A stretch of DNA of 63,866 bases from Oscillospiraceae bacterium. Lineage in GTDB: Bacteria; Bacillota; Clostridia; Oscillospirales; Acutalibacteraceae. Below the pieces are notes generated by a model. That model was not told the DNA's origin. It made no database searches and saw only the letters and a program-made list of their open reading frames with translations. Shown piece by piece: positions 26,135 through 39,480 of this stretch (the stretch's first letter is position 1; every line of letters begins with the position of its first letter). The position numbers and the translations under genes are program-made. The stretch spans positions 1-63,866 of the forward strand of contig SVPV01000012.1 in the NCBI GenBank assembly GCA_015065725.1. The letters are read 5' to 3'.

Positions 26135-26204
26135 ACTTTTTCTCCTTTTGGCATTTGCCATATAATTTTTAACCTCAAAAATCGGCACTCGCGATTAAAA
26201 AGAG

Positions 26205-26370
26205 AGGGATTGTTATACGGATATTTCGACTTAGCACAAAAGCTGTTCACCTTCTCGGTTTCCCAATGGTTTTCCTCTACTTGCGGCATAGAGTAGAACA
26301 ACCTCACATATTTATATATGTCGTGCATCACGGCGACGGGCTCGTACAGGAATTACACCTGTTTCCCCAT
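26205..26370 (-). ncRNA. Cobalamin (adenosylcobalamin-type) riboswitch
   Basis: Read on the minus strand, the B12-box core is present: GGGAAACAGGTGTAATTCC followed by GAGCCCGTCGCCGTGATGC, with P-stems and the 3' part GAAACCGAGAAGG...GTCGAAATATCC. It precedes the DUF4430-ECF genes. A weak 5-bp hairpin AATCG/CGATT with a T-run (26196-26180) may be the expression platform. Rfam-type covariance search would settle boundaries. Confidence 0.9.
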
Positions 26371-26381
26371 ATAACGAAATT

Positions 26382-26410
26382 ATTATAACAGTAACCCCAC
26401 TCTTTTTCAA
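26382..26410 (-). promoter_or_regulatory. Promoter of the cobalamin riboswitch transcript
   Basis: Minus strand -35 TTGAAA (26410-26405), 17-nt spacer, -10 TATAAT (26387-26382). The start is predicted about 5 nt ahead of the aptamer. Confidence 0.8.
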
Positions 26411-33869: not shown

Positions 33870-33878
33870 CCAAAAACC

Positions 33879-33970
33879 TCATCTTTTCGGAATATTCCGC
33901 AGGATTTAGCACCTTGTTTTTACAGGTTGCCGGGCATCATAGGGCCTGTCCCTCCGCCACTCTTGATAAG
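33879..33970 (-). ncRNA. SAM-I (S-box) riboswitch
   Basis: Minus-strand sequence shows CTTATCAAGAGTGGCGGAGG, GGCCCTATGATGCCCGGCAACC, GGTGCTAAATCCTGC and GATGAG in order, the S-box consensus. A 17-nt spaced promoter lies upstream (34010-34038), and a terminator follows. Confidence 0.97.
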
Positions 33971-34009
33971 GAACATATTAAATTATTATGTAGACTTGCT
34001 ACTCAAGAC

Positions 34010-34753: not shown

Positions 34754-34781
34754 GAAAAATACGCAAATATTGCATAATTTC

Positions 34782-34884
34782 TCCTTCCATCCGGACTATA
34801 CCGTCGGCTTCGGAATTACACCGAATCAACCATAATAGGCTCGCAGGCTTTACTGCCGGTGAGGAATTACACCTCGCCCTGAAG
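34782..34884 (-). ncRNA. FMN riboswitch (RFN element)
   Basis: Minus-strand motifs in order: CTTCAGGGCGAGGTGTAATT, CACCGGCAGTAAAGCC, GCGAGCC, TTGATTCGGTGTAATTCCGA and GCCGACGGTATAGTCCGGAT, ending GGAAGGAG. This is the RFN consensus, located upstream of ribU with a terminator. Confidence 0.97.
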
Positions 34885-34897
34885 AATTTACAATATT

Positions 34898-38437: not shown

Positions 38438-39220
38438 TCATTCATCAACCCAAGTATTAATTTCATCAGCTAATATCTTTACAAACTCTAAACGCCAAAT
38501 GTTAGAATTAAGCTTTTTTGCATCATCTTTATTAGTTGCATATCCCATTTCAATGAGTAATGATGGAAAATCGCAATATCTGGTAACAGTATAAGCATCT
38601 GCGTCGTTGCTTGCAGTTGTTTTTGTATAGTTATCAAAATTAACTGATAACGAATTACAAAGCTGAGCTACTCTATCGGCAAAAGGATTGTTCTCATAAT
38701 AATACAGTTCATACTGACTCAGTTCAGGATGGTTTATAATGCTATTAATATGTAACGAAACAAGCAAATCAATTTGATTTGTTTTATTGACACCGCAAGC
38801 ATAAATCGCCCTTTCGTATGCAGAAAAAACATTGTTTTCAATAAGCCTTGTATTATCATATTCAATATTATATTTGTTTGCAGTACTAATTATTTGCTTA
38901 CAGGTTGGAAATTTTTCGCCGTCGTGGGTGAGGATAACCATTATATTGCGTTTTTCAAGTTCTGTCTTTAGTAGCTTTGCTATCTTAATTGTAACTTCTG
39001 CTTCCACACCTGAAAGGAATTCGCTTTCACAGCCTATATCACCAAAACCGTGACCGGCATCAATGCAAACAACAGCCTTTGGATTTTCTATCACAGAAGA
39101 CACCTTGCTGCTTTCGTGAAGTATATCATCGATATTCAAATTAAAATCATAATCACTGATATAAACACAAGCAACCACGACGACTATAGCTACTAATACA
39201 AATGCAAAAATTTTTTTCAT
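38438..39220 (-). CDS. N-acetylmuramoyl-L-alanine amidase (Amidase_3)
   Basis: The 260-residue protein has an N-terminal membrane anchor or signal (residues 5-20) and an Amidase_3 zinc domain with CIDAGHGFGD (His57), GVEAEV (Glu ligand), LVSLHINS and the catalytic-type Glu in LLIEMGYATN. It cleaves the MurNAc-L-Ala bond in peptidoglycan. ATG 39220 follows CGGAGGAAG. Expression may depend on the structured leader at 39237-39445. It resembles CwlD-type sporulation amidases in size, but that is not proven. Confidence 0.92.
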   Translation of the reverse strand: MKKIFAFVLVAIVVVVACVYISDYDFNLNIDDILHESSKVSSVIENPKAVVCIDAGHGFGDIGCESEFLSGVEAEVTIKIAKLLKTELEKRNIMVILTHDGEKFPTCKQIISTANKYNIEYDNTRLIENNVFSAYERAIYACGVNKTNQIDLLVSLHINSIINHPELSQYELYYYENNPFADRVAQLCNSLSVNFDNYTKTTASNDADAYTVTRYCDFPSLLIEMGYATNKDDAKKLNSNIWRLEFVKILADEINTWVDE

Positions 39221-39236
39221 TTTAACTTCCTCCGAA

Positions 39237-39266
39237 TAAAAAGTGCGACAACCGAAGCCGCCGCAC
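39237..39266 (-). terminator. UUCG-capped terminator in the amidase leader
   Basis: Minus-strand 10-bp stem GTGCGGCGGC/GTTGTCGCAC (three G-U pairs) with a TTCG loop, followed by T5, ending 16 nt before the amidase start. Its 3' half TTGTCGC is complementary to GCGACAA at 39291-39285, the edge of the upstream long hairpin, so an alternative pairing exists. Confidence 0.78.
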
Positions 39267-39289
39267 AAAAAACGCAAACTCCAATTGTC

Positions 39290-39445
39290 GCCAAACAAAT
39301 TAAATAGAACTAAGGTATCACTACCATAACTACCTAACGGAATTTGCATTTTTATCAAACCCTAAAGTAATTATGGCAAAAAACAACAATAATATCCTTA
39401 AAATAAAAAAGATACCATTAGTTCTAAATATAAAATTTGTTTGGC
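39290..39445 (-). ncRNA. Candidate structured RNA: 156-nt long-hairpin leader or stand-alone ncRNA
   Basis: Minus strand. 5' segments GCCAAACAAATT, TAGAACTAA and GGTATC pair with 3' segments GATACC, TTAGTTCTA and AATTTGTTTGGC (12 + 9 + 6 bp with one bulge and one internal loop). Inside, CCATAATTACT pairs with GGTAGTTATGG. A consensus promoter predicts a start within a base or two of 39445, exactly the 5' end of the outer stem. No known riboswitch consensus was recognised; 6S-like RNA or a new attenuator are the options. Confidence 0.6.
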
Positions 39446-39451
39446 AAACTT

Positions 39452-39480
39452 ATTATACTACTAAAGTTTGCTTTTATCAA
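39452..39480 (-). promoter_or_regulatory. Promoter of the structured RNA/amidase transcript
   Basis: Minus strand -35 TTGATA (39480-39475), 17-nt spacer, -10 TATAAT (39457-39452). Confidence 0.78.

Follow-up and report, generated by a model that had tools for sequence, protein, structure and literature searches.

The segment from 39445 to 39238 on the minus strand of the window (the whole stretch of 63,866 nucleotides analysed here) is probably a cis-acting transcription attenuator and one copy of a new leader-RNA family. It is nearly certain that the family and its structure are real, widespread and not in Rfam 15. Transcription attenuation is the likely mode of action, and a switch between two alternative pairings, designated X:Y and the antiterminator, is probable. 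The features of the window copy and of its surroundings are listed below.

39452 to 39480, minus strand: promoter, -35 box TTGATA at 39480-39475 and -10 box TATAAT at 39457-39452, from a scan and family-wide spacing.
39290 to 39445, minus strand: outer hairpin of 156 nt, 5′ arm 39445-39434 and 3′ arm 39301-39290.
39356 to 39361, minus strand: W, the 5′ side of a local apical hairpin with X, from pairing and covariation counts.
39339 to 39353, minus strand: X, apical segment AAAAATGCAAATTCC, the partner of Y, from duplex energy, shuffles and covariation.
39268 to 39282, minus strand: Y, GGAGTTTGCGTTTTT, whose partner is X or, for its 5′ part, the terminator.
39277 to 39291, minus strand: predicted 5′ strand of the antiterminator, partner 39259-39245, from folds and a coupled column.
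39287-39279, minus strand: J, core of the antiterminator 5′ strand, CAATTGGAG, from the coupled column and a nearest-neighbour test.
39243 to 39266, minus strand: intrinsic terminator hairpin, UUCG-capped, from a scan; its stem covaries.
39242-39238, minus strand: U-tract of the terminator, five T.
39229 to 39233, minus strand: GGAGG, the likely ribosome binding site for the amidase gene, read off the sequence.
38438 to 39220, minus strand: N-acetylmuramoyl-L-alanine amidase gene (Amidase_3, 92.3 bits).

In the proposed mechanism, transcription would start at 39445 from the dedicated promoter, and the RNA would fold into a long hairpin whose apical segment X is able to pair with Y beyond the hairpin. 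In the off state, X would hold Y, leaving the UUCG terminator free to form, and an RNA of roughly 205 nt would end before the gene. In the on state, X would be kept in the local hairpin W:X while Y and J pair with the terminator sequence, letting RNA polymerase enter the gene. A ligand, a protein or another signal would select the partner of X. The comparison of copies supports, at the level of sequence, the outer stem, X:Y, the terminator, the fixed promoter and the position before genes, and from these we infer both the alternation of X:Y and the antiterminator in time and the assignment of the off and on states.

Regarding the transcription start, the promoter scan revealed TTGATA-17 nt-TATAAT at 39480-39452 on the minus strand, matching the consensus at 11 of 12 positions and making 39445, where the hairpin begins, the predicted +1. 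Matches of this kind number six in the stretch against 5.7 expected, and are thus not rare by chance. The first-pass annotation had already proposed a consensus promoter whose start coincides with the 5′ edge of the hairpin, and the family bears this out: in the promoter alignment (262 of 266 copies), the -10 and -35 boxes stand at the same distance from the 5′ arm as in the window copy, the most conserved columns being -35 (T in 252 of the 262), -15 (T, 221), -14 (G, 219), -11 (A, 241) and -7 (T, 235). As these promoter columns are fixed relative to the arm, the transcript should start at the 5′ arm.

The near-continuous 156-nt hairpin described in the same annotation is supported by the thermodynamic fold. 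The 226-nt leader folds at -75.7 kcal/mol against -42.9 ± 3.7 for 200 shuffles, none of which reached its energy (z -8.97), and the 12-nt arms 39445-39434 and 39301-39290 are perfectly complementary. The UUCG-capped terminator was likewise recovered by a scan, at 39266-39243 followed by five T, and the amidase ATG (39220) lies 16 nt past the end of the 3′ model match. Upstream of this ATG, the amidase frame continues without a stop codon across the terminator and into the apical loop (TTG at 39358; window 38438-39358, minus strand), which is probably chance. Across the family, a leader peptide beginning at an AUG in X was rejected because the start codon is not kept: the A-run is followed by TG in 160, by CG in 75 and by neither in 31 of 266 copies.

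In searches against Rfam 15 at the gathering score, seven matches were found in the window and none of them is the leader RNA; on the same strand, the window carries an FMN riboswitch (34775-34890), a SAM riboswitch (33876-33972) and a borderline cobalamin riboswitch (26199-26408). With relaxed filters, the leader stretch gave five rows, all far below gathering and at chance level, and neither setting returned a T-box row at the leader. Paralogous copies at 20 loci had no match at gathering, and two relaxed searches, of one copy each, gave nothing above chance level. The earlier view that no known riboswitch class is recognisable here thus holds for Rfam 15. Nothing recognised as the leader RNA was found in the literature searched, which took in parts of surveys of 26 and 50 genomes but not a 2017 list of 224 candidate RNAs, and three diagnostic sequence strings had no occurrence in the texts searched. 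The novelty of the family therefore rests mainly on Rfam 15.

Copies of the RNA were collected in three ways. A blastn search with a 281-base query gave strong matches (E no higher than 1e-9) in the own genome and in 15 of 39 other genomes, with several copies in some genomes and some at contig ends. Plasmid matches, in two Campylobacter records and covering 42 query bases, were dropped. A degenerate 22-base pattern derived from the 3′ part and searched exactly in genome contigs gave at least 117 stretches. Among the 80 pattern matches listed, 79 are from uncultured assemblies, many of them from ruminant gut, labelled Clostridia, Clostridiales, Oscillospiraceae, Ruminococcaceae, Ruminococcus, Bacillota or Christensenella. 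The remaining one, in Clostridium ljungdahlii, was judged by eye to be a chance match in coding sequence; it was not removed by name, and only by passing the profile search could it figure in later counts. The third source was a covariance model, R1, built from the 60-position 3′ end only. In the order of the host, R1 found copies in 101 of 295 genomes and 63 of 148 genera, with up to 11 copies per genome. Among 398 genomes of the phylum it found the own genome (five copies) and one weak match (27.1 bits), which sits behind a c-di-AMP riboswitch aptamer (101.8 bits) and was rejected as a chance match to the terminator of that riboswitch. The RNA family is therefore essentially limited, in the searches made, to one order of gut Clostridia, which we infer to be Oscillospirales.

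The 310 matches were reduced to 278 distinct ones by duplicate removal (5 of 118 pattern matches were removed as duplicates), and the 278 are a sample, giving at least that many copies; stretches taken in all numbered 140. The outer-stem test used 272 of the 278, six being too short, and the X:Y test used 266 of the 272, six having failed the arm criterion. To these 266, blast contributed 40, the pattern 106 and R1 by itself 120, and selection on the whole element applies to the blast-derived group only. Among the four alignments, A1 has 32 rows, one entered twice, and A2 holds 131 of 140 cluster representatives, nine short or doubtful ones having been left out. The short class is represented by A3 (53 of 53) and the long class by A4 (79 of 90 picked sequences, 11 being left out without a criterion). 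Measured between the 5′ arm and the first position of the 3′ model, most copies are of one of two sizes, about 90-120 or 125-170 nt. Five loci (L049, L080, L168, L261 and L281) carry two copies each, 215-324 nt apart, and L049 has at least the start of a third; between the paired copies there is sometimes a tiny frame or no evident gene.

To test the outer stem, the upstream segment pairing best with the 3′ arm was taken as the 5′ arm, and a copy passed with all seven outer pairs and at least nine of 12. In total, 266 of 272 copies passed, 230 with 12/12 pairing, compared with 81 (four at 12/12) when the upstream sequence was shuffled and 59 (none at 12/12) when a neighbouring 12-mer served as the arm. 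The arms are compensated among copies, as in GCCAAAC/GTTTGGC, GCGACAC/GTGTCGC, GTCACAC/GTGTGAC and GCTACAC/GTGTAGC. Beside this stem, AATA occurs at nt 11-24 (window about 39435-39422) in 200 of 266 copies, compared with 10.6% for shuffled sequence, and the motif is conserved and probably unpaired. In the long class, for example at L325:379-397, GGGATATTATACCC-TTTTT in the bulge of the 5′ side has the form of a small hairpin followed by a U-run; a loose pattern for it matches 127 of 186 long-class copies, a raw count without shuffle control, and the value for the small hairpin, 8.4 against 6.8 in shuffles, is no more than suggestive.

The long-range pairing X:Y was absent from the first-pass annotation. 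In the window copy it joins 39353-39339 to 39282-39268 with 15 of 15 pairs, counting G-U. Over the family, the mean duplex energy is -17.7 kcal/mol against -9.3 for shuffled interiors, and X:Y beats all 20 dinucleotide shuffles in 241 of 266 copies, including 98 of the 120 copies known from R1 alone. For the 100 copies with an unusual Y, 13.6% of 103 foreign Y segments match or beat the median copy. Taking the outer stem, X:Y and the terminator together, double changes occur at 24 of 34 pairs in A3 (12.5 shuffled) and at 18 of 35 in A4 (8.2 shuffled), and none of 500 shuffles was as high in either alignment. Sliding the partners out of register lowers the paired cells from 92-98% to 34-49% in A3 and A4. 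The alignments start at the arm from the outer-stem search, which favours the outer stem, and the shuffles answer this only partly. For X:Y alone, double changes are seen at 9 of 15 pairs in the short class and 4 of 15 in the long class. The pairing, as predicted from sequence, crosses the outer stem. The compensatory changes sought in relatives were thus found as strong covariation, which, with the lack of an Rfam match, the fixed promoter and the frame that directly follows the terminator in 214 of the 258 copies examined, upholds the earlier proposal of a structured RNA linked to the terminator in the manner of a riboswitch or attenuator.

The local hairpin that would compete for X is documented to a different degree in the two classes. 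In the short class, W:X has 84.0% and W:Z 78.1% of cells paired, and both have covariation scores above shuffles; their double-changed pairs are not above shuffles, 109 and 193 of 500 being as high. In the long class (A4), 88.2% of W:X cells are paired, with no covariation beyond controls.

Regarding the antiterminator, folds were confined to the sequence following the outer stem, up to and including the terminator, leaving X and the outer stem out. Among 272 copies, 21 had no parsable terminator or GGAG, and 245 of the remaining 251 were folded; the optimum was the antiterminator in 197, the terminator in 47 and another structure in one. In the window copy, the antiterminator pairs 39291-39277 with 39259-39245 at -25.3 kcal/mol, compared with -17.4 for the terminator state. 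Since 39282-39277 is shared with Y, X:Y and the predicted antiterminator cannot coexist. The complementarity of GCGACAA (39291-39285) to TTGTCGC (39251-39245), noticed earlier, is confirmed as part of this longer pairing. It had been read as a link between the closed outer stem and the terminator, and that link stands in part: the two segments form the foot of the predicted antiterminator, but GCGACAA shares only its first two bases, 39291-39290, with the outer stem, and the main competitor is X. Paired cells amount to 90.0% in the short and 91.2% in the long class against 30-43% when slid. Double-changed pairs are few (six against 4.8 shuffled in A3, three against 2.3 in A4), and the 9-pair register has a column that is unpaired in 33 of the 53 short-class copies. 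The clearest column pair (n = 79) has A-U in 45, U-A in 19, U-G in 13 and another combination in two. When nearest relatives differ at that column base, the partner differs too in 19 of 22 pairs; when they have the same base, the partner differs in 50 of 173. Forbidding the inner pairs makes the antiterminator less stable than the terminator in 78% of the 245 copies, and the bare 9-pair form is much weaker (median -6.2 versus -16.6 kcal/mol).

Downstream genes were counted for the 258 copies that are followed by 300 nt or more of sequence, using a simple script instead of a gene finder to call frames. In 214, a same-strand frame of 60 residues or longer starts less than 150 nt after the terminator (median 21 nt); in the others it starts within 150-400 nt (31), the frame is opposite (7) or there is none (6), which leaves 13 without such a same-strand frame within 400 nt. 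Clustering of the 214 proteins gave 140 clusters; the largest has 34 members, and its representative carries a BspA-type leucine-rich repeat (LRR_5). Simple patterns detect a hydrophobic N-terminus in 132 of the 214 and a lipobox-like motif in 57. The commonest Pfam family occurs in 8 of 131 cluster representatives, and no shared pathway was seen among the families listed for these representatives in Pfam, NCBIfam, PADLOC and PHROGs (the first 25 families of each, which for PADLOC are all). One further copy in the own genome (L222, on G000:C4) precedes a protein with a signal-peptide-like start and no Pfam match in its first 330 residues. Another copy, with its promoter, precedes an EcoRI-type adenine methyltransferase gene (PF13651, 396.6 bits) on a phage-labelled scaffold marked UNVERIFIED (L325:338-531; MT835503.1), and the cassette may therefore also travel on mobile DNA. 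A virus-borne element was rejected, with no exact matches in IMG/VR, though that one phage-labelled scaffold has a copy. Because a dedicated promoter and a strong terminator stand with the gene about 20 nt on, read-through would be the simplest route of expression, and the RNA probably decides whether each downstream gene is read.

A conserved structured leader with covariation is thus found before genes, as is expected of a riboswitch. It is conceivable, at somewhat less than even chances, that the family is a new riboswitch-like class whose long hairpin uses its apical loop as a mobile strand, pairing either in its own hairpin or with a strand beyond the stem. One signal would then act, through a self-contained cassette of promoter, switch and terminator, on numerous unrelated accessory genes, often for exported products, throughout an order of gut Clostridia. 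To our knowledge, such a cassette before unrelated genes would be unusual for leader RNAs. With its strong covariation and its presence in 101 of 295 sampled genomes, the RNA would define a regulon invisible to protein annotation, and it would be a ready assay for the signal controlling surface proteins, lipoproteins and cell-wall enzymes of the host bacteria. Regarding the signal, a small molecule, a novel protein or another RNA may act as such; c-di-GMP made by GGDEF enzymes is disfavoured as the general one, since GGDEF has no match in the own genome and none in 57 of the 101 RNA-bearing genomes. GGDEF is present in 44 of these 101 compared with 118 of 194 other genomes (Fisher p 0.0065); put the other way, the RNA is rarer among genomes with GGDEF (44/162) than without it (57/133) in the 295 genomes. 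Both comparisons are uncorrected for relatedness.

The attenuator may instead respond to a dedicated RNA-binding protein, not a small molecule, that stabilises one of its states, a possibility we hold to be unlikely on balance though the strongest of the rivals. The spread of the 214 downstream proteins over 140 clusters with no evident common pathway would suit it, and the few conserved bases lying outside helices (J, and AATA in 200 of 266 copies) look as a protein site might; against it, the own genome has a single NusG-family protein (one PF02357 match, no paralogue besides NusG) and no CAT_RBD protein (no PF03123 match), which disfavours control by known LoaP- or BglG-type antitermination. 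We think it improbable that the units are free-standing genes of a trans-acting small RNA, for which termination would be the point and the neighbouring gene incidental. Their own promoter and terminator and the five loci with two units would agree with this, but a frame within 150 nt in 214 of 258 copies, at a median of 21 nt, is needless for a free-standing gene. A palindromic mobile repeat (MITE-like or a recombination site), folded as RNA by chance, is very unlikely. It would account for the 12-nt terminal inverted repeat, the several copies per genome, some at contig ends, and the copy on a phage-labelled scaffold; yet orientation and spacing to the downstream frame are fixed, the conserved promoter lies outside the repeat, and the compensatory changes in X:Y and the terminator reach past the repeat, so that covariation contradicts this explanation. 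An invertible promoter was rejected, as the inverted repeat does not include the promoter and X precedes Y throughout the aligned copies. The alternative of 6S RNA or a 6S paralogue, which the long hairpin, paired ends and about right length would suit, can practically be dismissed, since RF00013 has no match here and the one 6S locus of the genome (55.3 bits) is elsewhere, at G000:C5:3696-3892.

Several known systems resemble the proposed attenuator. In T-box leaders, an antiterminator competes with a terminator and a trans-acting factor sets the outcome; both features would be common to the two, whereas the Rfam matches of the leader include no T-box row. LoaP, a NusG paralogue, and BglG/LicT-type proteins act by antitermination on a leader RNA with terminator read-through, and the read-through would be alike, but the own genome has the protein complement given above. 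6S RNA (RF00013) shares the long hairpin with paired ends, and differs in the missing match of its model at the leader. The guanidine-IV riboswitch and its variant Gd4v consist of a pair of hairpins linked through a pseudoknot, and their terminator stem belongs to the proposed ligand-binding structure; these motifs occur in several phyla, and Gd4v is gut-enriched with a ligand that is not known (PMC7736828, PMC9788692). Among the systems compared, they are the closest relatives in the way they would work. Like them, the present RNA combines a hairpin, a pseudoknot and an intrinsic terminator in a leader of genes of several unrelated kinds, and it has the gut enrichment in common with Gd4v. It differs in being found in one order instead of several phyla, and in its hairpin of roughly 100-170 nt, the apical loop of which would pair with a strand between hairpin and terminator.
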